49,655 nt of DNA, taken from assembly GCA_947456855.1 (NCBI GenBank), contig CANGTR010000009.1, positions 1 through 49,655 on the forward strand, written 5' to 3'. This DNA is from Sphingobacteriia bacterium (lineage in GTDB: Bacteria > Bacteroidota > Bacteroidia > Chitinophagales > Chitinophagaceae). Below, in pieces: positions 1 through 44,803 of the stretch (its first letter is position 1; the number at the start of each line of letters is the position of its first letter). The notes beneath the pieces were generated by a model. That model was not told where the DNA came from, ran no database searches, and saw nothing but the letters and a program-made list of their open reading frames with translations. The translations under genes and the position numbers were made by a program.

Positions 1-85
1 ATCTATTTACGAGCCAGTTTTATTGGAACTAGAAAAAGAGGGGATTCGATTTGATGAAATAAGAAAGATGAGAGATAAAAGATGA
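1..85 (+). CDS. C-terminal end of an unidentified protein (partial)
   Basis: An open frame enters from the left edge and ends at the TGA at 83-85. It reads YEPVLLELEKEGIRFDEI and then R-K-M-R-D-K-R-stop. The first part looks like genuine protein. The last six or seven codons fall inside a GAGATA-type tandem repeat, so the repeat supplies the basic tail and the stop codon. The ending faintly resembles the C-terminus of Bacteroidota saccharopine dehydrogenase-type enzymes, but 27 residues are too few to assign a function. Confidence 0.55.
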   Translation, partial: SIYEPVLLELEKEGIRFDEIRKMRDKR

Positions 86-119
86 GATATGAGATATCAG
101 ATATCAGATATGAGATATG
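63..119. repeat. Heptamer-type GAGATA tandem repeat array (locus A)
   Basis: Degenerate tandem copies of GAGATAN/AGATATN on the + strand, beginning inside the last codons of the preceding gene and covering its TGA stop. This is the same family as the arrays near 1.3, 19.4, 37.0, 42.1 and 44.8 kb, but here the GA-rich strand is the + strand. It does not form an obvious hairpin terminator. Confidence 0.8.
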
Positions 120-158
120 AATAACTAATAACAAATAACTAATAACAAATAACTAATA
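120..158. repeat. 14-bp AACTAATAACAAAT tandem repeat
   Basis: Nearly three perfect copies of a 14-bp unit (AACTAATAACAAAT) fill the gap between the GAGATA array and the ATG at 159. Related AATAAC/GTTATT sequence lies beside the arrays near 36.85 kb and 42.06 kb, suggesting a two-part repeat element. Confidence 0.8.
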
Positions 159-572
159 ATGAAATACTGGTTAATTAAATCTGAACCCTTTAAATACAGT
201 TGGGATCAGTTTGAAAAAGACAAAAAAACTTTTTGGGATGGTGTTAGAAACTATCAAGCAAGAAATAATTTAAAGGCCATGCAAAAAGGTGATCTTGCCT
301 TGTGGTATCATAGCAACGAGGGCATGGAAGTTGTAGGTATCGCTAAAGTTACAAAAACATTTTATCAAGACCCAACAACAGAAGAAACTGCTTGGGTAGC
401 GGTTGATTTTACCCCTTACAAAAAATTAAGAAAACCAGTTACATTGATAACAGTAAAGGGCGATAAAAGATTAGCCAATATGGCATTAATCAAAAATAGC
501 AGGTTATCAGTTCAACCTGTAACCGAAGAGGAATGGAAAATCATTATAGAGTTGAGTGATACAAAAATCTAA
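159..572 (+). CDS. EVE domain-containing protein
   Basis: A 137-residue protein that consists almost wholly of an EVE domain (PUA-like fold, thymocyte nuclear protein 1 family). It shows the typical N-terminus MKYWLIKSEP, the central WDGVRNYQARNN segment and the LALWYHS strand. The length is normal for the stand-alone bacterial form. EVE domains are known or proposed to bind modified bases in DNA or RNA; the ligand of this protein cannot be read from sequence. The ATG at 159 directly follows a 14-bp repeat, so the 5' region has no clear ribosome binding site. The sirtuin gene begins one base after its stop, which points to co-transcription. Confidence 0.9.
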   Translation: MKYWLIKSEPFKYSWDQFEKDKKTFWDGVRNYQARNNLKAMQKGDLALWYHSNEGMEVVGIAKVTKTFYQDPTTEETAWVAVDFTPYKKLRKPVTLITVKGDKRLANMALIKNSRLSVQPVTEEEWKIIIELSDTKI

Positions 573-573
573 G

Positions 574-1272
574 ATGAAAAAGCAACTTGTAGTGCTCACT
601 GGTGCAGGTATTAGTGCAGAAAGCGGAATAAAAACATTTCGCGATAGTGATGGATTATGGGAAGGCTATGATGTTTATGAAGTTGCATCACCAAGAGGAT
701 GGAATAAAAATCCACAAATGGTGCTCGATTTTTACAATATGCGAAGAAAAGATGTTGCCAATGCAATCCCCAATAAAGCCCATCTTCTTTTAGCCGATTT
801 AGAAAAGTATTATAATGTTCAAATAATTACACAGAATATTGATAATTTACATGAAAGAGCTGGTAGCTCCAATGTGATGCACTTACATGGAGAAATTTTT
901 AAAATGAGAAGTGTATTAGATCATCAACAAACGGCAGTTGTTGAAATCCGTGGAGATATTCAAATAGGTGATCTTGCCCCAGATGGTGGTCAGTACAGAC
1001 CACATATTGTTTGGTTTGAAGAAGATGTGCCAATGATTCAAAAAGCCACTGTTATTGTAGAAGAAGCCGATATCTTTGTAGTAATTGGAACATCTTTGGC
1101 AGTTTATCCTGCAGCAGGTTTGATCAATTATGCACCAAAAACAATTCCAAAGTTTATCATCGATAAAAATATTCCCAATACTCAGGCTCTGCTAAATTTA
1201 ACAGCTATCGAAGCGCCAGCATCTATTGGGTTAGAAAAATTGCAAGAATTATTATTACAGGCTGATTTATAG
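574..1272 (+). CDS. SIR2-family NAD-dependent protein deacylase lacking zinc cysteines
   Basis: A 232-residue sirtuin. The NAD-binding motif GAGISAESGI is at about 10-19, TQNIDN at 86-91, catalytic His105 in HLHGE, and GTSLAVYP near the C-terminal half. Tyr54 and Arg57 (FYNMRR) match the Y-x-x-R pair that class III sirtuins such as CobB and SIRT5 use for acidic acyl groups, so desuccinylase or demalonylase activity is plausible. The protein contains no cysteine at all, so the usual four-Cys zinc site is absent and the zinc module is shortened. An in-frame GTG at 556 is possible, but the ATG at 574, one base after the EVE stop, gives the normal N-terminus MKKQLVVLTGAG. Confidence 0.92.
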   Translation: MKKQLVVLTGAGISAESGIKTFRDSDGLWEGYDVYEVASPRGWNKNPQMVLDFYNMRRKDVANAIPNKAHLLLADLEKYYNVQIITQNIDNLHERAGSSNVMHLHGEIFKMRSVLDHQQTAVVEIRGDIQIGDLAPDGGQYRPHIVWFEEDVPMIQKATVIVEEADIFVVIGTSLAVYPAAGLINYAPKTIPKFIIDKNIPNTQALLNLTAIEAPASIGLEKLQELLLQADL

Positions 1273-1310
1273 CTCATTTAAAAAATAGTTATTTCTTTAT
1301 TCTGTTCCCA

Positions 1311-1408
1311 TATCTCTTATTTCACATCTCTTATCTTATATCTCTTATCTTATATCTCTTATTTCATATCTCATATCTCTTATTGCATATCTCTTATCTT
1401 TTATCGCA
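1311..1408. repeat. TATCTCT/TATCTTA heptamer tandem array (locus B)
   Basis: About 100 bp of imperfect 7-bp units (TATCTCT, TATCTTA, TATTTCA, TATCTCA) between the sirtuin and ychF. Here the pyrimidine-rich strand is the coding strand of both flanking genes, the opposite of the other five loci relative to the upstream gene. The array starts 38 bp after the sirtuin stop. Confidence 0.8.
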
Positions 1409-1427
1409 TAATTGTTAATTCTTTTGA

Positions 1428-1435
1428 TAACTTTG
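1428..1435 (+). promoter_or_regulatory. Putative -7 promoter element (TAACTTTG) of ychF
   Basis: TAACTTTG matches the Bacteroidota consensus TAnnTTTG and lies 19 bases upstream of the ychF ATG. No convincing -33 TTG at the usual spacing is visible; the upstream DNA is the heptamer array. Confidence 0.4.
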
Positions 1436-1454
1436 TTACCTCAAAAATAAAATA

Positions 1455-2558
1455 ATGGCTTTACAAGCAGGAATAGTAGGTTTACCCAATGTAGGAAAAT
1501 CAACCCTTTTTAACGCAGTAAGTAATAGTGCTAAAGCACAGGCAAGTAACTATCGTTTTTGCACAATCGAACCAAATACCGGACTGGTAGATGTGCCAGA
1601 TGAGCGTTTAAATAAATTGGCCGAATTGGTTCAACCCAACAAAATAATCCCTACTCAAATGGAGATAGTGGATATTGCTGGGCTGGTTAAAGGAGCAAGT
1701 AAGGGTGAAGGTTTGGGTAATAAATTTTTAGGGAATATTCGCGAAGTGGATGCCATCATTCATGTGATTCGTTGTTTTGAAGATGAAAATGTATTAAGAG
1801 AAGAAGGTGCTATCAATCCAATAAGCGATAAAGAAATCATTGAAACAGAATTACAACTCAAAGATTTAGAAAGTGTAGAAAAGAAAATGCAACGAGTGGA
1901 GAAAATGGCTCGTGTTGGATCTGATACCAAAGCAAAAGCAGAATTCGAAGTTTTAACTAAATGTAAAGCACACTTAGATGCAGGAAAAGGCATTCACACA
2001 TTGGGCTTGAGCAAAGAAGAAAAACTAGCTATTGCAGATCTGTTCTTATTAACAGACAAACCTGTATTGTATGTTGCCAATGTAGATGAAGCTTCTATGC
2101 ATACAGGAAATGCTTTTTCTGATAAATTAAAAGCCGTAGCTGAGGCTGAAGGTGCACAAGTAATTGTAATGTGCAATAATATCGAAGCCCAAATTGCTGA
2201 AATGGACAATGCTGATGATAAGCAGATGTTTATGGAGGAATACAAAATGACAGAACCTGCTTTAAACAGATTGATTAGAACTACCTACAAGTTACTCACC
2301 CTTGAAACATACTTTACTGCGGGGGTTCAAGAGGTAAGAGCATGGACTATTCATCATGGATGGAAAGCACCACAAGCAGCCAGTGTAATTCATACAGATT
2401 TCGAAAAAGGCTTTATCAAAGCAGAAGTTATTGCCTACGATGATTTTGTGAAATACGGAAGTGAAGCAGCATGTAGAGACAATGGCCGTTTAAGAATAGA
2501 GGGAAAAGAATATATTGTTAAGGATGGAGATGTAATGCATTTTAGATTCAATGTATAA
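1455..2558 (+). CDS. ychF: Redox-regulated ATPase YchF (Obg-like)
   Basis: A 367-residue protein of the Obg/YchF P-loop family. It carries the Walker A motif GLPNVGKS near residue 9, the switch region with the [14 protein letters not shown] motif, and NVDE in place of the GTPase NKxD motif, the change that gives YchF/OLA1 its preference for ATP. A C-terminal TGS domain ends in [12 protein letters not shown], the usual ending of the family. YchF associates with ribosomes and is linked to stress responses. Full length. A TAnnTTTG-type promoter element lies just upstream. The FAD oxidoreductase follows after 9 bp, so the two are probably co-transcribed although no functional link is known. Confidence 0.97.
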
Positions 2559-2567
2559 CTAGTATCA

Positions 2568-3692
2568 ATGTTATCGTTTTGGGAAACAGATAGTTTTTAT
2601 TCGCCAGTAGACATTGCCATTATTGGTGGTGGTTTAATGGGCTTATGGACAGCACTTGAATTAAAGAAACAATCTCCCAACATTTCAATTACAATAGTAG
2701 AAAGAAGTACTACCCCACTTGGAGCATCAACCAGAAATGCTGGATTCGCTTGTTTTGGAAGTTTAACAGAGTTGCTATCTGATGAATCTTCTATGGGAAC
2801 CAATGCAATGTTGGAAATTGTTGAAATGCGCTATAAAGGCATTGAGAAAATCAAATCTCATTTCAGTGTCGAACAAATTGATTTAGATGAATGTGGCGGA
2901 TATGAAGCCCTTTATAATATGGATTGGGCCAACCAGTTAAACGATCGGATTGCATATATTAATCAATTGCTTACTCCAATAATTGGCAATCATGATTGTT
3001 TTTCAAATGCTACCAAACGCATCAAAAGCATTGGTTTAAAAAAATTTGATCACTTAATATTTAATCCTTTAGAAGCTGGAATTCATAGTGGCAAATTAGT
3101 AAGTGCATTAACAGATTTGGTGAAAGAAAAAGGAATTCGAATATTGAATGGAATGGAAATCATAAGTTGGGAAAATTTGAATGATAAAGTAATTCTATCA
3201 ACCAAGAGCAATCAAACAATAACAGCCAATCAAGTATTGTTTTGCACCAATGGATTTACCAATGAATTATTACCTGAGTTAAAAATAGCTCCTGCTAGAG
3301 GTCAAATTATTTTAACAGCACCCATCAATGGGCTTTTAACAAAAGGCACTTTTCATTTTGATGAAGGATTTTATTATTGGAGAAATATTGGCAATCGAAT
3401 TCTATTAGGTGGTGCAAGGAATAGTGATTTCACCAATGAAGCTACCACCAGTTTTGAAGGATCCGATTTAATCAGAAACACATTGCTTGATTTTTTACAG
3501 AATCATTTGGAAACTTCAGCCCCAATTACCATCGAACAAAGTTGGAGTGGAATCATGGGATTTACTAAAAACAAACTCCCACTATTTGAACGAGTAGAAA
3601 ACAATATTTCAGCAGCTATAGCTTGCAATGGTATGGGGGTTGCCCTCACCCCTATTTTTGCAGAAAAAGTAGCTTATCAATTATTACATTAG
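2568..3692 (+). CDS. FAD-dependent oxidoreductase (DAO family)
   Basis: A 374-residue flavoprotein of the D-amino-acid oxidase/glycine oxidase superfamily. The dinucleotide-binding motif is near the N-terminus (DIAIIGGGLMGLWTALEL, residues about 16-33), followed by an acidic end of strand 2 (IVERS) and the STRNAGFACFGS segment typical of DAO-type FAD binding. The C-terminal part has PARGQIILTAP and NGMGVALTP, where the FAD ring is usually contacted. No signal peptide, so cytoplasmic. The substrate is unknown; an amino acid or other amine is likely from the family. It sits 9 bp downstream of ychF. Confidence 0.88.
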   Translation: MLSFWETDSFYSPVDIAIIGGGLMGLWTALELKKQSPNISITIVERSTTPLGASTRNAGFACFGSLTELLSDESSMGTNAMLEIVEMRYKGIEKIKSHFSVEQIDLDECGGYEALYNMDWANQLNDRIAYINQLLTPIIGNHDCFSNATKRIKSIGLKKFDHLIFNPLEAGIHSGKLVSALTDLVKEKGIRILNGMEIISWENLNDKVILSTKSNQTITANQVLFCTNGFTNELLPELKIAPARGQIILTAPINGLLTKGTFHFDEGFYYWRNIGNRILLGGARNSDFTNEATTSFEGSDLIRNTLLDFLQNHLETSAPITIEQSWSGIMGFTKNKLPLFERVENNISAAIACNGMGVALTPIFAEKVAYQLLH

Positions 3693-3743
3693 ATTTAACT
3701 TCCATTTGGCCAATTCTTTCTTAATTTTATTTCAATTCATCGT

Positions 3744-4550
3744 ATGAACAAGATCATTTTAAGTTTAGTTGTTGTATTACTATTTACCGGTTGCAAAAAC
3801 ACCGAACAACAAGATGCAATCGTCAATAATACAATTCCCTCACCTGCTTCCATTCAATACGCTTTATTGAAAGTATATCCGCATGATACATCTTCCTATA
3901 CACAAGGGCTTTTCTTTCATAACAATAATCTTTATGAAGGAACTGGATGGAATGGACAAAGTAAATTAATGATTGTAGACATCAATACTGGCAAGTCAAT
4001 CAAAAAAGTAGAATTGCCATATGAATTTTTTGGAGAAGGCATCACTTTATTAAACAACAAGATTTACCAACTTACTTGGCAAGATCATAAAGTAATTGTT
4101 TACGATGCAAGCACTTTCAACAAAATAACTGAACTAGAATGGCCCTACGAAGGTTGGGGACTAACCAATAACGGCAAGCAATTAATTATTAGTACTGGAG
4201 GAAGTAATTTGTATTTTGTAAACCCTGCAACGATGAAGATTGAACGCACCCTCGGTGTATCTGATAACAATGGATACATTGATAGTATTAACGAATTAGA
4301 ATTTGTTAATGGTTCTATTTATGCCAACAAGTATATGACAGATTTTATTTTGAAAATAAATCCTGAAACAGGCATCATTGAAGGGAAAGCCGATCTTTCT
4401 AATTTAATGAAAGAATCTGGCTCGTCGTATGATCCAAGAACAATTGACGCCGGATTTGTGTTGAATGGAATAGCATTTAATCCTGCCAATCAACACTTTT
4501 TTATTACAGGGAAACGTTGGCCTTTTTTGGCAGAAATAACATTCAAATAA
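3744..4550 (+). CDS. Glutaminyl-peptide cyclotransferase, lipoprotein (beta-propeller type)
   Basis: A 268-residue protein of the plant/bacterial (type I) glutamine cyclotransferase family. A lipobox (LLFTGC, Cys at about residue 17) indicates a lipid-anchored envelope protein. The family signature is seen in YPHDTSSYTQGLFF, YEGTGWNGQSKL, the acidic GEGI segment and NELEFVNGSIYANKY. These enzymes cyclise N-terminal Gln to pyroglutamate. This fits the finding that exported proteins in this window have Gln at +1 after signal cleavage. It is convergent with the methyltransferase gene, with only 10 bp between the two stops and no terminator visible. Confidence 0.9.
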   Translation: MNKIILSLVVVLLFTGCKNTEQQDAIVNNTIPSPASIQYALLKVYPHDTSSYTQGLFFHNNNLYEGTGWNGQSKLMIVDINTGKSIKKVELPYEFFGEGITLLNNKIYQLTWQDHKVIVYDASTFNKITELEWPYEGWGLTNNGKQLIISTGGSNLYFVNPATMKIERTLGVSDNNGYIDSINELEFVNGSIYANKYMTDFILKINPETGIIEGKADLSNLMKESGSSYDPRTIDAGFVLNGIAFNPANQHFFITGKRWPFLAEITFK

Positions 4551-4560
4551 TCAGATCAAA

Positions 4561-5463
4561 CTATTGGGTTGGTTCAAAAACATAAATAATTGAACTGCAT
4601 TTTTTAGCGTTGAATAAAGTTTTTAAATTGGACATTAAACCTATATAAAAAGCTTTTATCAAATTTGATTTTCCGTTTTTATATTGTTCACTTAACATAG
4701 AAACGTAAAAAGAATCAAACCACATTGGATAATGCGCAATCAGCTTAAAGCCATTGATTGAAGCCAATTTCTCCATTGATTCAGGTGAGAAATGATATAG
4801 ATGTCTTGGAACATCATAGGCCGCCCAATATTGTTGATAATGGCTAGCATCATAGGAAGTATAATTTGGAACCGCAATAATTAATTTTCCTTGCGGAGCA
4901 ATCAATCTTTTAAAATGACCCCAATAACCGGTTAAATCGTGCACATGTTCTAACACATGCCACAAAGTAATTGCGTCAAATGATTGGGCTTCTAAATGAT
5001 CTATTTGAGCAGGTTCATTAAGTACTAAGGCATAATTCTGTAACGCTAAATTTCTAGCGGAAGCATCAGGTTCTAAGCCAACAACATCCCATTCTTTTGA
5101 TTTCATTGTTTTGGCAAAGGCACCCGTACCAGCTCCGATATCCAATAATTTCCCAACTGATTTCTTGGTTATTGTATGAATTAATTGCTGCTTTGATTGA
5201 AGTGTATAATTTCTAACTATGTGGTATAAACGATTGATCAGCCCTTTCTTTGTATCACTGTGTGAAACATAATTATTGGATTGATAGTATGGGCCAATAT
5301 GATTGATGTCAGGAATGTTTTGAGTAAAGCGAAGTAAACACCCATTACAATGCCATATTTCAAATGATTGATTACTTACAGTATAATCAATTGCTGTTAT
5401 GATTTGATGAATGGTTGTTGAATTACAAACCGGACATTTCGATAAATGAATATTTCCCTGCAT
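4561..5463 (-). CDS. Class I SAM-dependent methyltransferase with N-terminal zinc ribbon
   Basis: A 300-residue protein. A zinc-ribbon-like motif (C10-x2-C13 and C39-x2-C42) precedes a Rossmann methyltransferase domain with the SAM motif LLDIGAGTGAF at about 106-116, an acidic loop GLEPD, and LWHVLEHVHDL, which is typical of the Methyltransf_23 group. The substrate is unknown; many relatives act in cell-surface sugar or lipid pathways. It is the last gene of a four-gene operon, 3 bp after the HU-CCDC81-like gene. It is convergent with the glutaminyl cyclase. Confidence 0.85.
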   Translation of the reverse strand: MQGNIHLSKCPVCNSTTIHQIITAIDYTVSNQSFEIWHCNGCLLRFTQNIPDINHIGPYYQSNNYVSHSDTKKGLINRLYHIVRNYTLQSKQQLIHTITKKSVGKLLDIGAGTGAFAKTMKSKEWDVVGLEPDASARNLALQNYALVLNEPAQIDHLEAQSFDAITLWHVLEHVHDLTGYWGHFKRLIAPQGKLIIAVPNYTSYDASHYQQYWAAYDVPRHLYHFSPESMEKLASINGFKLIAHYPMWFDSFYVSMLSEQYKNGKSNLIKAFYIGLMSNLKTLFNAKKCSSIIYVFEPTQ

Positions 5464-5466
5464 AGC

Positions 5467-6048: not shown

Positions 6049-6062
6049 TTTTCCCCCGTTAA

Positions 6063-7907
6063 TTAAAACGAATATACAACTCCTGCCATAACATTAAAAC
6101 CAAATACCGGATATTGGTTCCATCTTTGGTAAGTATTATTGAATAAATTGTTCATCTGAAGCCATATTCGCCAATTTTGACCAATATCAAATTCTCCCCC
6201 AATATTAAAATCTAGGCCTGGCGAAAGCCTAGTTGGAGGAGTGGTAACAGTTTTATACATACTACCCCCTAAATAAAAAAGGTCCGCTTTTAACTGAAGA
6301 CCTTTCAATGGTTTCCAAATAGAAGTACCTGTTATTTCTACTGGAATAAGACCCCAAGCATAATTGTTTACTGAAAAAGCGTTGAATTGAGTAAAACTAG
6401 CTGATGCCAAGACAGACCAATTGTCTTGAACAATATAACCGAATTCTCCTGCAATTTTCAATGCATTCATTGTAGATTCATAAATGATGTTGAAGCTTTT
6501 ACCATCCATTGGATCATTTAAGAACAAAGGTTGATTTTTTAACTGTTGAAAAGCAATCTTAGCATTATAAGTGATATGATTACCCGAACTACCTTTAATT
6601 CCTATAAACTGTTGATTAATTTGTGTATTCACTATAGCCGACAATGGTCCAATCCAAGGGTTATAACCAATAAGAGAACGATAACTATTCTTTTGGAAGT
6701 TTCCATCCCACCCTAATTGAAAAATCAATGGCGTATTATTCAACTTTGCTTCTGCCAATATATTGGGCAACATGATATAATTGGTATTATCCCAAGAAGG
6801 TCTTAATCCAATATTCAATTTAACATTTGGAGTATTAAACGATATTGCTGGGTTTAATGAAAATAAATTATTATTAATCTGGGTGGTATTGAATTGGGTA
6901 TTGGCAATATCAGCTTCAAATTTTAATTTGAAAGAAATGATTTTACTAAAGGCTTTTTCTATTGGCAATTTGAAAATCAGGTTGTTTTCTGCTCCACTAT
7001 TATTATCTGTAAATCTATAAACACTTAATTGAGGATTAAAATCAACCCCAGCTTCATTTGGTTGCTTATTTTTTGCTCCGATTTCTGCTGCTACAGTATT
7101 GAATATTTGTTTTAACTGATCTTTAGAATAAACCAATGTTGAAGGAGAATATCCATATCTATATTGAGTAATTGAATTAAAATAACCATGACTGATTAAT
7201 TCGTATTTATCATTCTGCAATATTGAAATTGCATCCAGATTTAACTTACTCATTTGCTGAGCAAATAAATTGCTCTTTGAACTGATATAATCAGCCTTAA
7301 TGTTTGTGATTGATTTTTTTCCATCACCAAAAGAAAACCTGCCTTCTCCAAAAAAAGTACTCAGATTTCCTGCTCCAATTTTTATTTGATGTTGATTGGT
7401 CCAGACCATGCCAGAATCTATTGGCATTGCCAATGGTTGAATAGCTATTGGGTCGTAAGTGAAAAATAAATTTGAGGATGGAACTTTGTAATTATGTGGA
7501 ACAATGGATGTATCAATTATATTAGACGCAGCAGTAAAATTAATTTTTGCAGCATTTTGTAGGGAAGGCTTAAAATCGGAAGTAATAACCACTGTTTTAC
7601 TACCAATTGTATCCCTTTTATTGTCTTTATTCTCTATTAAAAAGGCATTTGACTGACTATTTTTAACCGTTGATGACCTATTGATATTGACGGATTGCTT
7701 TTTGGTTTTTGTTGATTTCTTACTCGATTGCTTTTTGGTTTTCGTTGATTTCTTACTCGCCTGCTTTTTCTTTTTACTTACAGTGGAAGATTTGGATGTT
7801 TTGTTTTTTTGAGAAGATTTATGTTTTTGAGCATCAATACCATTGCCAATCAATAAAAATATTGGCAAGAGTAAGATTATTAATGTTCGATTAGTAATTG
7901 TATTCAT
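6063..7907 (-). CDS. Outer-membrane beta-barrel protein with Lys-rich N-terminal region
   Basis: A 614-residue exported protein. The signal peptide is followed by cleavage at IDA^Q. A strongly basic Ser/Thr/Lys-rich stretch covers roughly residues 28-72 and includes an 11-residue tandem repeat (KKSTKTKKQSS/V). The rest consists of alternating amphipathic strands ending in FGFNVMAGVVYSF, a typical beta-barrel C-terminal strand with terminal Phe, and resembles TonB-dependent-receptor barrels without a recognisable plug domain. It is located 7 bp after the TPR gene and 14 bp before the HU-CCDC81-like gene, so it is probably co-expressed. The cargo or role is unknown. Confidence 0.8.
   Translation of the reverse strand: MNTITNRTLIILLLPIFLLIGNGIDAQKHKSSQKNKTSKSSTVSKKKKQASKKSTKTKKQSSKKSTKTKKQSVNINRSSTVKNSQSNAFLIENKDNKRDTIGSKTVVITSDFKPSLQNAAKINFTAASNIIDTSIVPHNYKVPSSNLFFTYDPIAIQPLAMPIDSGMVWTNQHQIKIGAGNLSTFFGEGRFSFGDGKKSITNIKADYISSKSNLFAQQMSKLNLDAISILQNDKYELISHGYFNSITQYRYGYSPSTLVYSKDQLKQIFNTVAAEIGAKNKQPNEAGVDFNPQLSVYRFTDNNSGAENNLIFKLPIEKAFSKIISFKLKFEADIANTQFNTTQINNNLFSLNPAISFNTPNVKLNIGLRPSWDNTNYIMLPNILAEAKLNNTPLIFQLGWDGNFQKNSYRSLIGYNPWIGPLSAIVNTQINQQFIGIKGSSGNHITYNAKIAFQQLKNQPLFLNDPMDGKSFNIIYESTMNALKIAGEFGYIVQDNWSVLASASFTQFNAFSVNNYAWGLIPVEITGTSIWKPLKGLQLKADLFYLGGSMYKTVTTPPTRLSPGLDFNIGGEFDIGQNWRIWLQMNNLFNNTYQRWNQYPVFGFNVMAGVVYSF
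7693..7758. repeat. 33-bp tandem duplication inside the beta-barrel gene
   Basis: Two copies of a 33-bp unit at 7693-7725 and 7726-7758 differ at a single base. They encode the Lys-rich 11-residue repeat of the barrel protein and keep the reading frame. A partial third copy follows at higher coordinates. Confidence 0.85.
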
Positions 7908-7914
7908 CCTTTAA

Positions 7915-19396: not shown

Positions 19397-19482
19397 TATC
19401 TAATATCTCTTATCTCCTATCTCTTATCTCTTATCTTATATCTTATATCTCCTATCTCCTATCTCCTATCTCCTATCTCCTA
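19397..19482. repeat. CTCCTAT/CTCTTAT heptamer tandem array (locus C)
   Basis: A 7-bp tandem array; at 19449-19482 nearly five consecutive copies are perfect CTCCTAT. It ends in the trxB stop codon (CTA at 19480-19482 on the + strand). On the trxB strand the unit reads GGAGATA, which looks like a repeated Shine-Dalgarno core, although no gene starts directly beside it. Confidence 0.85.
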
Positions 19483-20424
19483 AAGGCCTTTGGCTGTTAA
19501 ATATCGCTCCGCATCAAGCGCAGCCATACAACCACTACCAGCTGCAGTTACAGCCTGACGATAGTTTTTATCCTGTACATCGCCGGCAGCAAAAACGCCC
19601 TCGATATTGGTTTTGCTAGTACCTGGCTGAGTAAGAATATATCCTGTTTCATCCATATCTAAATATCCTTTAAAAATATCGCTGTTGGGTTGGTGACCAA
19701 TGGCAACAAAAAATCCACTAATAGCAATTTCTTGTGTCACTTGAGTTTGGTTATTTTTAATTCTAACCGCTTCAACTTTTTTCTCCCCTAAAATTTCATC
19801 CGTATCGGTATTCCAATACACTTTAATATTGGGGGTATTCAAAACACGATCCTGCATCACTTTGCTTGCACGCATTTTATCTTTACGAATAAACATATGA
19901 ACAGTAGTACACAATTTAGACAGATACATGGCTTCTTCTGCAGCTGTATCTCCTGCACCTACAATGGCTACTTCTTTGCCTTTAAAGAAAAAACCATCAC
20001 ATACTGCACATGCACTTACACCAAACCCATTCAATCGTTGCTCACTTTCGATACCCAACCATTTTGCAGAAGCGCCAGTACAAATGATTACAGCATCAGC
20101 ATGAATTTCTTTTTCTTCATCAATCCATACTTTAAATGGTTGAGCAGAAAAATCTACTTTAGTTGCTAGTCCATAGCGAATATCTGTGCCCATTCTAGCA
20201 GCTTGTTTTTCAAAGTGCACCATCATTTCAGGGCCTTGTATACCATCAGGATAACCAGGATAATTTTCTACTTCCGTTGTTATGGTTAATTGACCTCCAG
20301 GTTGTATTCCTTGATACAATAAGGGCTTCATGTTGGCTCTGGCTGCATATATTGCCGCTGTATAACCTGCAGGACCAGATCCGATTATTAACACATGTAC
20401 TTTTTCTATTGCTTCTTGTTCCAT
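19480..20424 (-). CDS. trxB: Thioredoxin-disulfide reductase
   Basis: A 314-residue flavoprotein. The FAD-binding motif GSGPAGYTAAIYAARA is at about 16-31, the redox-active pair C139-A-V-C142 in the NADPH domain is followed by DGFFF, the NADPH motif GAGDTAAEEA is present, and the C-terminal FAD motif EGVFAAGDVQD closes the protein. It reduces thioredoxin with NADPH in the cytoplasm. No thioredoxin gene is next to it. The stop codon lies inside a 7-bp repeat array. Confidence 0.97.
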   Translation of the reverse strand: MEQEAIEKVHVLIIGSGPAGYTAAIYAARANMKPLLYQGIQPGGQLTITTEVENYPGYPDGIQGPEMMVHFEKQAARMGTDIRYGLATKVDFSAQPFKVWIDEEKEIHADAVIICTGASAKWLGIESEQRLNGFGVSACAVCDGFFFKGKEVAIVGAGDTAAEEAMYLSKLCTTVHMFIRKDKMRASKVMQDRVLNTPNIKVYWNTDTDEILGEKKVEAVRIKNNQTQVTQEIAISGFFVAIGHQPNSDIFKGYLDMDETGYILTQPGTSKTNIEGVFAAGDVQDKNYRQAVTAAGSGCMAALDAERYLTAKGL

Positions 20425-26755: not shown

Positions 26756-26758
26756 TGC

Positions 26759-36425: not shown

Positions 36426-36827
36426 TTAATTATAGGGTTGAATATGGCAGGGCTTTTTGGGTTGAGGCCCGCCCCCATCTTCTGGTCTTTTACAAATAGG
36501 TGGTAATTTTTTGTAGGCTTCTGGCTCTGCTTTTTCGTCGTCTGCATCAAATCCTGCGTTATTCAGCGCTGTTTTAATAGTTGATTCATCTGTTCGGTCT
36601 GGCCAAAACTGCACTTTAATTTCCCCTTGTAATAGATTGATCTTCCATTGAATCATTCCAGATTCCATATTGGCCTTATTTTCTACAACCAAGTATTTTT
36701 CCAATCGCTCTTTACATTCCCAGCATTTTAAATTGGCTGATTTAATGGTTACCCATTGCTGTTTAGGCATCTGAGCTTTGCTAATTAAACCCATGATCAT
36801 TAAAAGAAAGGTTAAGCAGATTTTCAT
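36426..36827 (-). CDS. Secreted heavy-metal-associated (HMA-like) domain protein
   Basis: A 133-residue protein with a signal peptide (LISKA^QM) and a small alpha/beta domain whose first loop has C35-W-E-C38 in the position of the MxCxxC metal site, followed by the usual pattern (KERLEKYLVV, then GEIKVQFWPDRTDESTIKTA, GFDAD). The Met before the first Cys is Leu-Lys here. The tail (PPICKRPEDGGGPQPKKPCH) is rich in Pro, Gly, Cys and His and may also bind metal. Copper handling is possible but unproven. Confidence 0.72.
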   Translation of the reverse strand: MKICLTFLLMIMGLISKAQMPKQQWVTIKSANLKCWECKERLEKYLVVENKANMESGMIQWKINLLQGEIKVQFWPDRTDESTIKTALNNAGFDADDEKAEPEAYKKLPPICKRPEDGGGPQPKKPCHIQPYN

Positions 36828-36838
36828 AGGAACTATAT

Positions 36839-36870
36839 TGGTTATTGGATATTAGTTATTGATTATTGGC
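36839..36870. repeat. GGTTATTGGATATTAGTTATT repeat next to locus D
   Basis: Short AATAAC/GTTATT-type repeats lie between the HMA-like gene start and the heptamer array. They match in type and relative order the AACTAATAAC repeats beside locus A and locus E. Confidence 0.6.
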
Positions 36871-36905
36871 TATCTAGGTCATTTCATCTTTAATCTTTCT
36901 AAATT

Positions 36906-37030
36906 CTTATCTCATATCTCTTATCTCATATCTCTTAACTCATATCTCTTATCTCTTAATTCTTATCTCTTATCTCATATCTCTTATCTCATATCTCTTA
37001 TCTCATATCTCTTAATTCTGCTCTCTTATC
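36906..37030. repeat. TCTCTTATCTCATA tandem array (locus D)
   Basis: About 125 bp of 7-bp units, often alternating as a 14-bp unit (TCTCTTATCTCATA). It runs into the pyrE stop codon (TTA at 37026-37028 on the + strand), so the array forms the end of that gene. It is the longest array of the family in the window. Confidence 0.88.
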
Positions 37031-37655
37031 TGCCCCAAACTGAAGGGGCTAGGCTCCAATCCATTAAAAGCGCTTTGTCTTCTTGGCTTACTATGCCCTT
37101 TTCAACCGCCAAATCAATCATTGTAGCATAATTGGTTAAAGATCGAGTTTGCACGCCTGCATCTTGAAAAGCTTTAACAGCATGATCAAATCCATAGGTG
37201 AAAATAGAAACCATTCCTACAATATGCACATCCGCAGCTTTTAGTACATCTACCACTTGCAAACTGCTTTTACCCGTAGAAATGAGATCTTCGATAACCA
37301 ATACCTTTTGCCCCTTGGTATAAGCGCCTTCAATTTGATTACCTAGCCCATGCTCCTTTGGCTTAGGACGAACATACATAAAAGGTAGTTTCAACTGATC
37401 TGCCGCCATAGCGCCCCATGGAATACCAGCTGTTGCTACCCCAGCCAATGCATCCGCTTCAGGAAAATGTTCAAATATTACGTTACAGAGTTCACTTTTA
37501 ATAAAATCACGTACATAAGGGAATGATAATACTTTTCTGTTATCGCAATAGATTGGGCTTTTCCAACCACTGGCCCAGGTAAATGGGTTATTGGGACTTA
37601 ATTTAACAGCTTCTACTTGTAGCAATTTTTCCGCTACGGCTTTTTCATTTGTCAT
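37026..37655 (-). CDS. pyrE: Orotate phosphoribosyltransferase
   Basis: A 209-residue enzyme that joins orotate and PRPP to give OMP in pyrimidine synthesis. The PRPP-binding motif is VLVIEDLISTGKSS (about 110-123); FTWASGWKSPIYCDNR near the N-terminus and YVRPKPKEHGLGNQIEG in the flexible catalytic loop are also standard. Length is normal. The stop codon lies inside a 7-bp repeat array. pyrB and pyrR are 1.5-3 kb away, but the intervening genes are not part of the pathway. Confidence 0.96.
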   Translation of the reverse strand: MTNEKAVAEKLLQVEAVKLSPNNPFTWASGWKSPIYCDNRKVLSFPYVRDFIKSELCNVIFEHFPEADALAGVATAGIPWGAMAADQLKLPFMYVRPKPKEHGLGNQIEGAYTKGQKVLVIEDLISTGKSSLQVVDVLKAADVHIVGMVSIFTYGFDHAVKAFQDAGVQTRSLTNYATMIDLAVEKGIVSQEDKALLMDWSLAPSVWGR

Positions 37656-37717
37656 GCAACGAATGTAAAACCATTTTTGAATTGGAAAATGACAAAAATT
37701 AATTGAGTTTTGATAAT

Positions 37718-39010: not shown

Positions 39011-39011
39011 T

Positions 39012-39100: not shown

Positions 39101-39103
39101 TTA

Positions 39104-40033: not shown

Positions 40034-40059
40034 TAAAGAGCAAAGCTAATTAATAATTT

Positions 40060-40581
40060 TTAAACAATAACCACTTCATCTTTTAGGCCAGTTTCGGACC
40101 AATTTACTTTAACCTTATCAGATACAATTGTATCAATTGCCTTGCCAGAAAAGTCAGGCTGTATGGGCAATTCTCTACTAAATCTTCTGTCGATTAACAC
40201 ACACAATGAAACTTTGGAAGGTCTACCAAAGTCCAACAATGCATCCAAGGCTGCCCTAATCGTTCTTCCTGTGTACAACACATCATCAATTAAAACAACT
40301 GTTTTTCCTTCAATACTAAACGGAATTTCAGTGGCATTGGCAATATGAAGGGCTTTTCTTACATCATCCCTGTAAAACGTAATATCTAATTTTCCGTATT
40401 TAATATGCTGATGAGGTACAATTTGCTTCAATTCCACCACAATTCGATCGCTTAAAAAAATACCTCTAGGTTGCAATCCAATAATTACTGTATTGTTCAA
40501 GCCTTGGTTATTCTCTACAATCTGGTGAGCAAGCCGCTTAACGGTAAGTGCTATTTGCTGTTCAGATAAAATCGTCTTCAC
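40060..40581 (-). CDS. pyrR: PyrR: pyrimidine operon regulator / uracil phosphoribosyltransferase
   Basis: A 173-residue phosphoribosyltransferase-fold protein. The PRPP motif VVLIDDVLYTGRTIRAALDA and the block LIDRRFSRELPIQPDFSGK match PyrR. In Firmicutes it binds a leader RNA to control pyr operons; here the 80-bp gap before the gene is too short for a visible attenuator, so only the enzyme role or a different RNA target can be supposed. It heads the pyrR-pyrB unit and is divergent from recF. Confidence 0.92.
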   Translation of the reverse strand: MKTILSEQQIALTVKRLAHQIVENNQGLNNTVIIGLQPRGIFLSDRIVVELKQIVPHQHIKYGKLDITFYRDDVRKALHIANATEIPFSIEGKTVVLIDDVLYTGRTIRAALDALLDFGRPSKVSLCVLIDRRFSRELPIQPDFSGKAIDTIVSDKVKVNWSETGLKDEVVIV

Positions 40582-40647
40582 AAAATAAATTTTATTAAAA
40601 ATAATGGCTTTCTTCCAAATCAGCCAATTTATTAACGTGGTTCTTTA

Positions 40648-40656
40648 TTACTTTGC
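40648..40656 (+). promoter_or_regulatory. Putative -7 element (TTACTTTGC) of recF
   Basis: TTACTTTGC is one base away from TAnnTTTG and lies only 5 bases before the recF ATG. If it is the -7 element, the transcript would begin at or very near the start codon. Confidence 0.3.
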
Positions 40657-40661
40657 AATCC

Positions 40662-41741
40662 ATGCTTCAAATCAAGAAACTCGAACTGATACAATTCAGG
40701 AACTACCATCAACAGAAATGGGAATTCAAGGAAAGAATTGTTTGCATTAGCGGGTTGAATGGCGTTGGAAAAACAAATTTATTAGACGCCATCTATTATT
40801 TAGGGTTTTCGAAAAGCTATTTTTCCCGAACTGACGCGCAAAATGTTCAACACGGGCAGATTGGCATGCGCTTATCTGGTAACTACATACTTAATCAAGC
40901 GCCTTTTAACATTACTTGTATTTTAAGAGAAACCAATCGAAAAGAGTTATCGGTAAACGATGAAATACAAAAAAAAATGTCTGACCATGTGGGTAAATTT
41001 CCCAGCGTCATGATAGCACCGGATGATGTAGAATTAATCAGCGGAAGTGGTGAAGGCAGACGCAAAATGATGGACTCAATTTTATCTCAAACAGATCGAG
41101 CATACTTGTATCATTTAATGGATTATACAAAAGTATTACAACAAAGAAATGGATTATTAAAAAACGCAGCCACTACCCATATAGACCATACTTTATTAGA
41201 AGTATTCAACACAGAACTGATTAAATCTGGAGAATATATTTATCAAAAACGAAAATTGTTCTTGCAAATTTTTATACCATCTGTAATTGATTTATACACT
41301 TCAATAGCTGGGAAATCAGATGAATTAAATTTGGAATACCAAACCGAATTAAATGAAAATTCTTTAGAATGGTTACTCAACAATAGTTACCAAAAAGATT
41401 TGATACTCCAAAGAACAACCAAAGGAATTCATCGAGATGATATAAATGTTCAATTAAATAAATATCCATTTAAAACAGAAGCTTCGCAGGGACAACGAAA
41501 GAGTTTATTATTTGCGTTGAAACTAGCTGAATGGGAATTTCTTTACAAGTATATTGGCTTTGCTCCTATTTTGCTGTTGGATGATGTTTTTGAAAAACTC
41601 GACGAAAAAAGAATGTTTCAATTATTAGAAAGAGTATGCAGCGAATATTATGGCCAAGTATTTATTACCGACACGCACGCAGATAGGCTTAAAAAGCAGT
41701 TAAGGGAAACTGGAAAATCATTTCAACTCATTGAATTATAA
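40662..41741 (+). CDS. recF: DNA replication/repair protein RecF
   Basis: A 359-residue SMC-like ATPase that loads recombination proteins at gaps. Walker A is GLNGVGKTNLLDAIYYLGF (about 32-50), the signature motif is SQGQRKSLLFALKLAEW and Walker B is PILLLDDVFEKLD. A TTG at 40653 is in frame; the ATG at 40662 gives the standard MLQIKKLELIQFRNY start. It is divergent from pyrR. The DUF721 gene follows after 19 bp, an arrangement common in Bacteroidota. Confidence 0.96.
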   Translation: MLQIKKLELIQFRNYHQQKWEFKERIVCISGLNGVGKTNLLDAIYYLGFSKSYFSRTDAQNVQHGQIGMRLSGNYILNQAPFNITCILRETNRKELSVNDEIQKKMSDHVGKFPSVMIAPDDVELISGSGEGRRKMMDSILSQTDRAYLYHLMDYTKVLQQRNGLLKNAATTHIDHTLLEVFNTELIKSGEYIYQKRKLFLQIFIPSVIDLYTSIAGKSDELNLEYQTELNENSLEWLLNNSYQKDLILQRTTKGIHRDDINVQLNKYPFKTEASQGQRKSLLFALKLAEWEFLYKYIGFAPILLLDDVFEKLDEKRMFQLLERVCSEYYGQVFITDTHADRLKKQLRETGKSFQLIEL

Positions 41742-41748
41742 ATAGCGC

Positions 41749-41756
41749 TAACTTTG
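41749..41756 (+). promoter_or_regulatory. Putative -7 element (TAACTTTG) of the DUF721 gene
   Basis: TAACTTTG matches the -7 consensus exactly and ends 4 bases before the ATG. A transcript from here would have almost no 5' leader. No -33 TTG is seen at the standard distance. Confidence 0.35.
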
Positions 41757-41760
41757 CAAT

Positions 41761-42042
41761 ATGGCCGAAATGCATATTGGAGACGCATTAAAAGGATTTA
41801 TTCGAAAGAGTAATTTAAAGAATGGCATTCGTGCAGTTCAAATAGAAGAAGTATGGGAAAAATTAATGGGAAAGACCATTGCTAAATACACGGAGAAAGT
41901 GCAAATCATCAATAAAAAATTATTCATTCATACCAATATTGGGCCTCTAAAGAATGAACTACAATTTCAGAAGCCACAGATCATTGCCCGAGTGAATGAA
42001 CTTTTTGGAGAAGAAGTGATAACCGAAGTTATTGTTCAATAA
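41761..42042 (+). CDS. DUF721 (DciA-like) domain protein
   Basis: A 93-residue protein: MHIGDALKGFIRKSNLKNGI, then VWEKLMGKTIAKYTEKVQI and LFIHTNIGPLKNELQFQKPQ match DUF721, whose best-studied member DciA loads the replicative helicase. It follows recF, so a DNA replication or repair role is likely. The full domain is present. Confidence 0.85.
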   Translation: MAEMHIGDALKGFIRKSNLKNGIRAVQIEEVWEKLMGKTIAKYTEKVQIINKKLFIHTNIGPLKNELQFQKPQIIARVNELFGEEVITEVIVQ

Positions 42043-42046
42043 CGTC

Positions 42047-42146
42047 GGTTAGTTATTGGTTATTGGGATATAAGTTATTCTTATCTTTTATCTCTTATCT
42101 TTTATCTCTTATCTTTTATCTCTTATCTCTTATCTCTTATCTCATC
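42047..42146. repeat. TATCTTT/TATCTCT heptamer array with GTTATT repeat (locus E)
   Basis: Between the convergent DUF721 and BT_3928-type genes. From 42047 to 42078 there is a GGTTAGTTATTGGTTATTGG-type sequence; from 42079 to 42146 the 7-bp array (TATCTTT and TATCTCT units, 14-bp alternation). The BT_3928-type stop is 10 bp away. The order relative to that gene (stop, GAGATA array, AATAAC part) is the same as at loci A and D. Confidence 0.85.
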
Positions 42147-42155
42147 TTTCTGCTT

Positions 42156-43250
42156 TCATAAATGACTTAATAACGCTAACGCATCGAGGTAGCTGCGTTT
42201 ATCTATAATAGTTGCACCCTGCATTAAGTAAAAAGTAGGCTTAACCCTTGCTGCAGTTTTTAATACCGTTGCATCACAACTTAAAACAGTATAGTCCGGA
42301 AACGCATTTTTAATCTTTGCAGCTTCTGCTGAAACCAAGAAAACAGGGATCATTTTTTGCTGAAGTTTTGCTTGTAAATCAATCAATGATTTTTTCCATT
42401 GATTGATCCCTTCTGCGTCTTGAATCATTAACAAAACATATTCACCAGATTGTTGAAAAATGGCCGCTGTTGTATCAGTTTGATTACTTGTTTGCAGAGA
42501 AAAATCAATGATTGCTGGCTTCAATCCGTTACCCGGTTTTACCAATTGATCTTTTCGATCTATATACAAATAAGAAGAATCAAAATCTTCTGGAAAATGT
42601 GCTTGATCGAATTGGATTTGTTTACCGTCTTTTTGATAAATAAATTGAATGGAAAAACTATCCAAAGTAGCACCTACAGGCATTTTCATTTCTGTTAAGA
42701 TATTGTTTCCCTTTTTGTAGGGCAAACAATCTACCAATGGTAGATGCTGCAGCACATGCCATTGTAAAAAACAAGCTATCCCAACAGTAATAACTAAAAT
42801 TGAGCCAGAAAAAAAAGGCTTTATAACAGGAGTGATTTTTTGGTGCGTAATTACCAGAATAAAAATGAGCAATAACAATATCAAATCTTTTCCAAATGAT
42901 TGTGCAGCAGTTAAAGGAATACAATCTCCAAAACATCCGCATGTTTTAATTTTTCCAGAAAATAAAGCAAACCCAGTTAGAAATGTAAAAAAGACAATCA
43001 GTATAAGCAATAGCCAACTGAATAATTTCATTCTCCATCCAATAATCACTGCCATACCTGCAAGTACTTCAAACACATTCATACCAAGGGAGAATGCCAA
43101 TGCATAATTATTTAAAAAGTGCAAGTTCAACACTTCAAAAAACTCTTGCATTTTATAGCTTAGCCCCATTGGGTCATTCACTTTTATCAAACCAGAAAAA
43201 ATAAATAACAACCCAACTATCCAACGGATAAACCAAAGTATTGTTTTCAT
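42156..43250 (-). CDS. BT_3928-like membrane protein: DoxX/MauE domain plus thioredoxin-like domain
   Basis: A 364-residue protein. The N-terminal part has four or more membrane segments (IRWIVGLLFIFSGLIKVNDP is the DoxX/MauE start) with C104-G-C-F-G-D-C110 at the membrane edge, a likely redox site. After about residue 240 there is a thioredoxin-like domain (EYVLLMIQDAEGINQWKKSL, then VKPTFYLMQGATIIDKR, the cis-Pro region) that lacks the usual CxxC. The family is named after Bacteroides BT_3928. A role in thiol-disulfide exchange is likely, but partners are unknown. The gene follows the DUF1599 gene after 15 bp on the - strand. Confidence 0.85.
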   Translation of the reverse strand: MKTILWFIRWIVGLLFIFSGLIKVNDPMGLSYKMQEFFEVLNLHFLNNYALAFSLGMNVFEVLAGMAVIIGWRMKLFSWLLLILIVFFTFLTGFALFSGKIKTCGCFGDCIPLTAAQSFGKDLILLLLIFILVITHQKITPVIKPFFSGSILVITVGIACFLQWHVLQHLPLVDCLPYKKGNNILTEMKMPVGATLDSFSIQFIYQKDGKQIQFDQAHFPEDFDSSYLYIDRKDQLVKPGNGLKPAIIDFSLQTSNQTDTTAAIFQQSGEYVLLMIQDAEGINQWKKSLIDLQAKLQQKMIPVFLVSAEAAKIKNAFPDYTVLSCDATVLKTAARVKPTFYLMQGATIIDKRSYLDALALLSHL

Positions 43251-43265
43251 GTGTTTATGAATGAG

Positions 43266-43817
43266 CTATGAAATATGTTTTCCTTCATCAATAAGAATCA
43301 AAGCAAATGCTGCATAATTGATAATATCAACATAATTGGCATCTATCCCTTCACTGATTAAGGTTTTTCCATCATTTTGTAAAATTTGTTTGATACGCAA
43401 CAATTTTACCAAGATTAAATCAGCAAAACTTTCCTGACTCATTGCTCTCCAAGCTTCACCATAATCATGATTTTTAGAGAGCATGGTGTCTTTAGCCAAT
43501 TGAGCACTGTGCTTGTATTTGGTAGCTGTATCTTCTAATCCTAATTCTTCTACTGTTGCATTATTTATTTCTAATTGAATCAACCCAATGATTGCATAAT
43601 TTAATATGCCTTTAAACTCCGAAGCTATATCATCCCCTACTTTTTGGGTCTTTAAATCTTGTATGGTTCTAATACGTAAAGCTTTTATGAAAATTTGATC
43701 TACTACCGAAATAGTTCTTAATACCCTCCAGGCTGTTCCATAATCCTTGGTCTTTTTAATAAAAATATCATAGGAATTGGCAACAACTTGATCGTATTGT
43801 TTATTGGTATCCGACAT
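43266..43817 (-). CDS. DUF1599 protein with two tandem domains
   Basis: A 183-residue protein with two similar halves. KDYGTAWR (24-31) followed by VLRTISVVDQIFIKALRIR, and HDYGEAWR (117-124) followed by AMSQESFADLILVKLLRIK, show an internal duplication. DUF1599 has been described as a nucleotide-modification-associated domain, but no reaction is proven. A longer frame up to 43886 exists; the ATG at 43817 (MSDTNKQYD) is the better start and leaves a 69-bp gap to the divergent folP. The BT_3928-like gene follows. Confidence 0.85.
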   Translation of the reverse strand: MSDTNKQYDQVVANSYDIFIKKTKDYGTAWRVLRTISVVDQIFIKALRIRTIQDLKTQKVGDDIASEFKGILNYAIIGLIQLEINNATVEELGLEDTATKYKHSAQLAKDTMLSKNHDYGEAWRAMSQESFADLILVKLLRIKQILQNDGKTLISEGIDANYVDIINYAAFALILIDEGKHIS

Positions 43818-43848
43818 TATAATTAATGGTTTTATTGGCTTTAGACAA

Positions 43849-43856
43849 TATCTTTG
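43849..43856 (+). promoter_or_regulatory. Putative -7 element (TATCTTTG) of folP
   Basis: TATCTTTG fits TAnnTTTG and lies 30 bases before the folP ATG in the gap between divergent genes. The -33 element is not clear. Confidence 0.35.
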
Positions 43857-43886
43857 AATAAGGTGCAATTTAACTGAATCGAGCAA

Positions 43887-44723
43887 ATGTTTACACTTAA
43901 CTGCAAAGGAAGTTTACGGATTATTGAAGAGCCGCAAGTAATGGGTATTATTAACAGTACCCCTGATTCCTTTTACAACAAAAGCAGAACCGCCAATATC
44001 CTTGCTGCTATTGAATTAGCAGAAAAAATGGTTCAAGAAGGTGTGTCGATAATAGATATCGGAGGCCAGAGTACCAGACCAAGTGCAGCGATCATAGAAC
44101 CTTCAGAAGAAATAGATAGGGTAATTCCAATTATAGAAGCCATTCATGCTCAATTTCCAAATTTGCTGATTTCTATAGATAGTTTTCGCCCTGAAGTGGC
44201 AAAAACAGCGGTTCTTGCCGGCGCTTCCATTGTAAATGATATTAGCGGAGGTCAGTTTTTTCCTGAAATGATACCAACAATTGCATCATTAAAAGTGCCT
44301 TATATCTGTATGCATTGTGCCAATGACATCAATAAAATGCACGAAAAAATTAACTACCCCAATATCACCGAATCGATTATTAACTATTTTAAAGAAAGAT
44401 TAAACGCCTGTAAAGAAGCCGGAATGCTGGATGTGATCATCGACCCAGGATTTGGATTTGGGAAAACAATGCAAGACAATTTCAAACTCATGAATGAATT
44501 GGAATCTCTTTCCATATTGAATGTACCAATTTTAGTTGGGGTATCTAGGAAATCGATGATTTATAAGACTTTGCAAATTGAAGCAAGCGAATCGCTGAAT
44601 GGAACAACTGTTTTAAATACGGTAGGGCTACTAAAAGGTGCATCTATTTTGAGGGTACACGACGTAAAAGAAGCCAAAGAAACCATTCACCTGGTTCAAC
44701 AACTTCGCTTAAAAAGAAATTGA
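43887..44723 (+). CDS. folP: Dihydropteroate synthase
   Basis: A 278-residue TIM-barrel enzyme that joins 4-aminobenzoate to the pterin in folate synthesis, the target of sulfonamides. The signature strands MGIINSTPDSFYNKSR and SIIDIGGQSTRPSA, then SIDSFRPEVAKTA, NDISGGQFFPEM, DVIIDPGFGFGKTMQDNFKL and LVGVSRKSMI are present. The loop after TPDSF is YNKSRT instead of the more usual SDGG. The divergent DUF1599 neighbour is a common Bacteroidota arrangement. Confidence 0.96.
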   Translation: MFTLNCKGSLRIIEEPQVMGIINSTPDSFYNKSRTANILAAIELAEKMVQEGVSIIDIGGQSTRPSAAIIEPSEEIDRVIPIIEAIHAQFPNLLISIDSFRPEVAKTAVLAGASIVNDISGGQFFPEMIPTIASLKVPYICMHCANDINKMHEKINYPNITESIINYFKERLNACKEAGMLDVIIDPGFGFGKTMQDNFKLMNELESLSILNVPILVGVSRKSMIYKTLQIEASESLNGTTVLNTVGLLKGASILRVHDVKEAKETIHLVQQLRLKRN

Positions 44724-44761
44724 GTTACCAGGTATTTAAAACCCGATAACTCAATAACCTG

Positions 44762-44803
44762 TATCTCTTATCTTTTATCTCTTATCTTTTATCTCTTATC
44801 TCT
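44762..44803. repeat. TATCTCT/TATCTTT heptamer array (locus F)
   Basis: Six 7-bp units between folP and the FKBP gene. The array includes the FKBP stop codon (TTA at 44796-44798 on the + strand) and the preceding Arg codon. An 8-bp inverted repeat (TTGAGTTA at 44720-44727 with TAACTCAA at 44747-44754) overlaps the folP stop just before it. Confidence 0.85.

Follow-up and report, generated by a model that had tools for sequence, protein, structure and literature searches.

What are arrays of a 7-nucleotide (7-nt) unit doing at the ends of genes, and why do they lie there on one strand? The question is raised by a 49,655-nucleotide stretch of a Chitinophagaceae bacterium (contig CANGTR010000009.1, assembly GCA_947456855.1; hereafter the window), where arrays of GAGATAN units, read as TATCTCT and the like on the other strand, repeatedly contain a stop codon. 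A first-pass annotation had reported at least six such arrays, had taken the GA-rich strand to be the sense strand of the gene that ends at five of them, and had held this bias to be hard to explain by random microsatellites. The genome-wide count against shuffled positions that it proposed, run here on 49% of the genome, upheld the claim: 33 of 42 arrays begin no more than 15 nt from the stop codon of a gene whose sense strand is the GA strand, against 9.6 expected from random placement, and base composition is not the cause. The observation is real and stronger than first noted.

Place and strand at gene borders

The genome of the window (G000) comprises 2,478,466 bases in 132 contigs, is rated 100% complete and was placed near Sediminibacterium / Chitinophagaceae, its nearest pyrE relatives being so named at 78-80% identity. 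The sample, window included, amounts to 1,220,973 bases in three lots. Genes were called with our own codon-usage script, in which stops are surer than starts. Both flanking genes were known for 42 of the 56 GAGATA-type arrays, and these were counted; the other 14, with one flank off the stretch or contig, were omitted. When arrays were placed at random in the same gaps with random strand (expected 9.6, standard deviation (sd) 2.4), none of 5000 shuffles reached 33, and when the strand alone was flipped the expectation was 17.5 (sd 2.9, maximum 28). The 33 arrays are spread over the lots as 4/5 in the window, 15/17 in the rest of the first sample and 14/20 in the second and third samples together. 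One short gene (C1 72829-73047), whose stop is abutted by an array, was added by hand before the count; without it the figure is 32/42. Widening the interval to -30 to +20 nt from a GA-sense stop gives 35/42.

In convergent gaps the GA-sense stop is the nearer one for 13 of 14 arrays, and in tandem gaps the GA strand is the sense strand in 22 of 28. No array of the 42 lies in a divergent gap, although 171 of the 704 gaps of at least 20 bp are divergent. The first-pass annotation had described the arrays as supplying stop codons, and this holds for the 22 of 42 that overlap a GA-sense stop (one overlaps a CT-sense stop), but it is only part of the story. The bias persists among arrays that begin after the stop, with 13 GA-sense against 2 CT-sense (p = 0.007), and is therefore not just a trivial effect of the GA strand holding stop codons. 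Nor does the rule at stops reflect local composition, since the 40 nt that directly follow each of 360 array-free stops show no excess of G or of purines (GC skew -0.045, AT skew -0.012), and we reject composition bias as its cause. Outward of 586 starts the background GC skew is +0.10, weak and of the same sign as the rule.

In the window, tandem repeats were taken from Tandem Repeats Finder (TRF), stop positions from the list of open reading frames (ORFs) and gene identities from Pfam. The pattern TATCTCTTATCTC, with two mismatches or fewer, matches here 56 times against 1.4 expected. The arrays and the genes that end at them are as follows.

63-120, plus strand: array A, GAGATAN units (two overlapping TRF rows, 68-120); GA strand is the sense strand of the gene ending inside
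1309-1410, minus strand: array B (TRF), the exception in strand; pyrimidine strand is the sense strand
19404-19482, minus strand: array C (TRF, sequence); trxB stop codon 19480-19482 inside (distance -3), GA strand is trxB sense
19480-20424, minus strand: trxB-like pyridine nucleotide-disulphide oxidoreductase gene (Pfam, ortholog comparison)
36905-37031, minus strand: array D (TRF, sequence); pyrE stop codon 37026-37028 inside; in the sister species G023 this stop also carries an array
37026-37655, minus strand: pyrE-like phosphoribosyltransferase gene (Pfam, ortholog comparison)
42075-42157, minus strand: array E (TRF core 42075-42143 plus a segment matching itself at lag 7), reaching the stop of the MauE/DoxX-type gene
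42156-43250, minus strand: MauE/DoxX-type gene (Pfam), stop 42156-42158
44762-44803, minus strand: array F (TRF, sequence); FKBP gene stop codon 44796-44798 inside (distance -8)
44796-45710, minus strand: FKBP-type peptidyl-prolyl isomerase gene (Pfam)

All six arrays of the first-pass annotation thus have TRF rows (68-120, 1309-1410, 19404-19482, 36905-37031, 42075-42143 and 44762-44803), and the four stops it placed inside arrays do lie there: those of trxB, pyrE and the FKBP gene, and that of the first gene of the window, a plus-strand frame open on the left (2-85) whose stop at 83-85 falls within array A. In its fifth case, given as 10 bp from the stop, the TRF core is 12 nt from the stop at 42156-42158, with degenerate units extending to the stop itself. 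Array B is the strand exception that had been claimed, and is flanked by a Sir2-family gene (stop 1272) and a gene for a YchF-type GTPase (start 1455).

Nine of the 42 arrays fail the 15-nt threshold. Three have a GA-sense stop at 19, 45 and -23 nt, and the other six lie in tandem gaps without any GA-sense stop (C2 20561, C9 1326, which is array B, C23 13942, C27 6455, C36 13637 and C38 13326). At C27 6455, C36 13637 and C38 13326 a start codon lies 1, 21 and -9 nt away and the pyrimidine strand is the sense strand; at C9 1326 and C23 13942 the start lies at 49 and 42 nt. The remaining exception, C2 20561 (L116 187-596, corresponding to G000:C2 20187-20596), stands upstream of the transfer-messenger RNA (tmRNA) gene, about 4 bp from its 5' end, again with the pyrimidine strand as sense; it is the sole array seen beside a non-coding RNA gene, and no array was seen at the 3' end of one. 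Stops and starts are covered together by a wider rule that the first-pass annotation did not contain, namely that the G-rich strand points outward from the gene. The 5' side of the GA strand is the side nearer a gene in 39/42 arrays (median -1.5 against 51.5 nt), a count in which C2 20561 is a miss because the tmRNA gene was not added to the gene calls. Arrays also occur as inverted pairs (C6 19191-19468, C13 22226-22473 and C27 6423-6488). The minimum fold energies of the three paired arrays are -102, -40 and -9 kcal/mol, and those of two single arrays are 0.0.

Period, extent and turnover

Across G000, when one mismatch is allowed, TATCTCTTATCTC is matched 568 times, against 4 for the reversed control pattern. 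The sample holds 60 segments that match themselves at lag 7 and 60, 54, 51 and 44 at lags 14, 21, 28 and 35, whereas the count is 0-3 at every lag up to 32 outside the multiples of 7. Head-to-tail 7-nt units thus exceed other periods, as in bacterial heptanucleotide simple sequence repeats. The GAGATAN type makes up 56 of the 60 period-7 arrays, the median array has 11.7 units, and all 28 lag-7 segments of the first lot are intergenic. The density is about 49 per Mb, or about 120 per genome if the remainder is similar. Many contigs start or end in or beside arrays (C1 2-93 and 79648-79732, C2 4-212, C10 44-231, C12 3-105, C27 43-292, C32 122-207, C36 1-26, C45 60-160 and the ends of C23 and C35), and for this reason much of the fragmentation of the assembly is probably caused by them.

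Among 100 genomes, G000 included, the pattern count is highest in G000 (568), followed by G023 (269) and G035 (116), and the next highest is 28; the strict GAGATA form has 82 matches in G023 and 2 in G035, for which genes were called with the codon statistics of G000. Stretches of G023, whose genome is 70% complete, were selected for holding arrays. Of the 19 arrays in them, 15 are no more than 20 nt from a GA-sense stop and the other four are not. Nine of the 19 have an ortholog in the G000 sample (pyrE twice, giving eight distinct places), eight have none and two have no GA-sense gene. At six of the eight places both species carry an array, with differing unit mixes and lengths; of the two without an array in G000, one shows barely more than one unit at the stop, the other being a start-side case. 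Behind trxB and pyrE many array-less relatives have short gaps. In other relatives the trxB gap is occupied by CTTCAAT units (G031) or by inverted heptamer arrays (G043 and G050).

Within the phylum the long form was found in 7 of 395 genomes: G000, five of one other genus (g48, with TATCTTT units) and G321 of another family. All three pattern-matched arrays of G321 abut a stop with the GA strand as sense, and a fourth, weaker lag-7 segment (L331 1381-1416) lies beside one of the three, not at a stop. No stop of a listed ORF adjoins any of the seven distinct arrays in g48 (at one locus every ORF is 330 nt or shorter). Among the g48 loci L321, L323 and L333, two have arrays 5-15 nt from a start codon, and in two the arrays are fused to an ACATTAA array.

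At other loci, 54 distinct period-7 arrays were examined, 28 of which abut exactly one gene border, 6 both and 20 none. Two of the 28 have zero skew; in 23 of the other 26 the outward strand has more G than C (14/16 at stops, 9/10 at starts). In a broader test of outward polarity, the Chitinophagales alone gave 14/15, G023 gave 18/21 and control segments gave 161/306. A phylum-wide version of the strand rule is suggestive, not settled. Over 350 kb from 20 other genomes of the genus, only one lag-7 segment was found. Prevotella-type loci (L100-L110 without L103) hold 17 period-7 segments of many units in 92 kb, a higher density than that of the Chitinophagales loci, with 12 in 630 kb.

What could set place and strand

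The best explanation, to which we give a probability of about 0.5, may be a lineage-specific heptamer satellite that grows by slippage and is subject to a selective filter on place and strand. The arrays would belong to the 7-nt tandem repeats already known from bacteria, growing, shrinking and homogenising by slippage in 7-nt steps, as the differences in unit and length between species suggest. In this genome they survive in untranslated DNA that touches a gene border, overwhelmingly with the G/A-rich strand outward, and selection would act against other places and the other strand. The polarity would be that of a filter on transcripts. RNA leaving the gene would be purine-rich and unstructured, with stops in nearly every frame, and hence harmless; the opposite strand would place C/U-rich RNA resembling a Rho-utilisation (rut) site, with few stops, behind the gene. 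Stop codons are present in 163 of 168 GA-strand frames and in 46 of 168 CT-strand frames. Slippage growth is the likelier part of this reading; a Rho-type filter is the weaker part, though plausible. Action of the arrays at the 3' ends of mRNA, one of the suggestions of the first-pass annotation, is possible.

The RNA evidence concerns the antisense strand behind 34 array-bearing stops, compared with 384 array-free stops. Behind array-bearing stops this RNA has a pyrimidine fraction of 0.78 (0.48 array-free), a C/G ratio above 3 in 30/34 cases (3/384), 18.4 YC per 78 nt (5.7) and a mean fold energy of -1.1 (-12.3). It is thus pyrimidine-rich, richer in C than in G and unstructured, as loose criteria for a rut site demand. 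A strict rule was also applied, our own version of the RhoTermPredict type (criteria from excerpts of PMC6407284), with cytosines every 11-13 nt over 78 nt and six in a chain.

Several observations weigh against a filtered satellite. No array antisense stretch of the 34 passes the strict spacing rule, below the 9 of 384 array-free ones, though 4/34 have five cytosines in a chain. In 6 of the 28 tandem-gap arrays the CT strand is in the outgoing transcript, the next start being no more than 21 nt away in three of them. Outside this lineage 20 of 54 arrays abut no border and 7 of 54 lie in divergent gaps, and the broader test, with its poorer gene calls, gave 23/34 outward (p = 0.058). A filter alone, moreover, explains neither why arrays abut borders instead of lying anywhere in the gap nor why one unit recurs at all loci.

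The alternative that survives best, although we consider it unlikely, is that the arrays are functional insulators of gene borders. RNA entering a gene, be it antisense RNA coming in over the stop or sense read-through nearing the start, would become C/U-rich and unstructured just short of the border and be cut off by Rho. A single polarity would then account for stop-side and start-side arrays alike, and the pyrimidine-rich, C-over-G, YC-rich and unstructured antisense RNA is as this idea predicts. A Rho gene was found in G000 and in G321, and rut sites of Bacillus subtilis are, in the excerpted text of PMC12350095, pyrimidine-rich, G-poor and preferentially antisense to genes. The failure of the strict spacing rule counts against insulators as well, paired arrays can form hairpins that hide such RNA, and most stops have no array (384, against 34 with one); no Rho match was found in the 70%-complete genome of G023. 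A generalised form, in which many bacteria build a polar border mark whose outgoing RNA is purine-rich and whose entering RNA is C/U-rich, unstructured and removed by Rho, with period and polarity kept and sequence left free, we regard as a doubtful extrapolation. If it is true, antisense and read-through RNA would be removed by Rho before reaching into a gene, whatever the heptamer sequence.

Growth that depends on orientation is an unlikely account. Purine-rich nascent RNA in the untranslated stretch behind the stop would form RNA-DNA hybrids that promote expansion in that orientation only, which would suit the GA-sense arrays behind genes and their absence from divergent gaps (0/42). Start-side arrays have the opposite transcript strand, however, and the seven arrays in divergent gaps of other species do not fit.

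An improbable reading is that units containing TAA, TGA or TAG are kept as stop cassettes, giving stops in all three frames behind a gene. The 163/168 GA-strand frames with a stop speak for it, as does the seventh position of 395 counted units (A 237, T 104, G 35, C 19), at which only C removes the stop. Three units would suffice, yet the median is 11.7; C-type units occur in 6 arrays; the long CTTCAAT array behind trxB in G031 is built of a unit without a sense stop codon; and start-side arrays are left unexplained. Selection for stop codons as the whole story is rejected as weak, on the seventh-position counts and the G031 array.

Very improbable is templated addition by a telomerase-like bacterial reverse transcriptase (compare DRT10) acting at DNA ends in gaps and leaving outward, G-rich inverted arrays: polarity and inverted pairs would fit, DRT10 makes tandem-repeat DNA according to excerpts of PMC12632851, and the array-bearing G321 has two RVT_1 matches, but the RVT_1 model, which a divergent enzyme could escape, matched nothing in G000 (100% complete) or G023 (70%). 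A G-quadruplex function, as considered for GGGAATC arrays with the same placement rule (PMC4692102, in excerpt), is largely refuted by sequence for GAGATA-type arrays, none of 56 having the four GGG runs of a three-tetrad structure (one has any GGG run) and 3/56 having four GG runs, so that a two-tetrad form would be possible in few.

Comparison with known heptamers, and other repeats of the window

The placement rule has been described before, for other heptamers; the arrays that follow it here are AT-rich and belong to another phylum. In the excerpts of Rehm et al. 2015 (PMC4692102), the GGGAATC and GGGGA(C/T)T arrays of Xanthomonas and Nostoc follow the same rule: behind an ORF they mostly stand on its coding strand at 0-50 bp from the stop, and in front of one they mostly stand on the non-coding strand at 0-50 bp from the start. 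GGGAATC-type repeats are nearer the 5' neighbouring ORF (28 against 160 nt), form inverted pairs, are few in divergent gaps and mostly stand at the same genes in sister species with variation in length and sequence; the distribution was the same for Xcc when shorter and mutated repeats were included. The arrays described here resemble them in being dispersed, mostly intergenic 7-nt units with outward polarity (39/42, with 33/42 at GA-sense stops), inverted pairs and under-representation in divergent gaps (0/42). They differ in that the Xanthomonas and Nostoc units are G-rich, fold into quadruplexes and prefer four units, whereas GAGATAN arrays have a median of 11.7 units and show no preference for four, and none of the 56 has four GGG runs; most of them, moreover, are found at stops, and many contain the stop codon.

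MacGregor 2015 (PMC4679880), in excerpt, describes TAACTGA direct repeats of Beggiatoaceae, Cyanobacteria and five Bacteroidetes, mostly upstream of starts. These too are sporadic intergenic heptamers with stops in all frames of one strand, and some overlap the stop of the upstream gene; one Bacteroidetes genome has a set directly after a stop in reverse orientation. The unit is different, however, and where most sets of these TAACTGA translational-regulator sites lie a few nt upstream of a start codon, 35/42 arrays here are tied to GA-sense stops. Among the matches listed, this paper alone touches on such arrays in Bacteroidota. Heptamers are the most abundant category of long simple sequence repeats in Mrazek et al. 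2007 as described in PMC4679880, and polymerase slippage was proposed for those of period 7 (as described there and in PMC4692102); the descriptions in the excerpts of the two papers do not mention a gene-border strand rule.

The published rule was discussed in terms of G-quadruplexes, and the role of the repeats was not identified, a functional role that in the words of the excerpt "still remains to be elucidated" (PMC4692102). Because the rule holds here without four GGG runs, in another phylum and in a second family (3/3 pattern-matched arrays), it points to another cause, be it period, strand composition or transcription. A ten-year-old open question on the role of heptamer arrays thereby becomes directly testable.

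The window also contains period-7 arrays of other units (AATAACT, TATTGGT and GTTATTG), which the first-pass annotation did not list.

120-159, plus strand: period-7 array AATAACT/AATAACA (TRF, sequence), C-rich strand as sense, ending on the start codon of an EVE-domain gene at 159-572 (Pfam)
36836-36873, plus strand: period-7 array TATTGGT (TRF, sequence), on the start side of the minus-strand ORF 36426-36827, G-rich strand outward
42052-42066, plus strand: two GTTATTG units (TRF, sequence) directly behind the plus-strand gene ending at 42042, G-rich strand outward

A Pfam search with the ORF at 36426-36827 gave no match. This second heptamer set (CAATAAC / GTTATTG / AATAACT) shares several gaps with GA arrays, at the three places just listed, and a CCAATAA-type stretch follows the GA array behind pyrE in both G000 and G023. 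A 33-bp tandem repeat of 2.3 copies lies at 7693-7769, within ORF 6063-7907, and lag 33 gives 7 segments in the genome sample.

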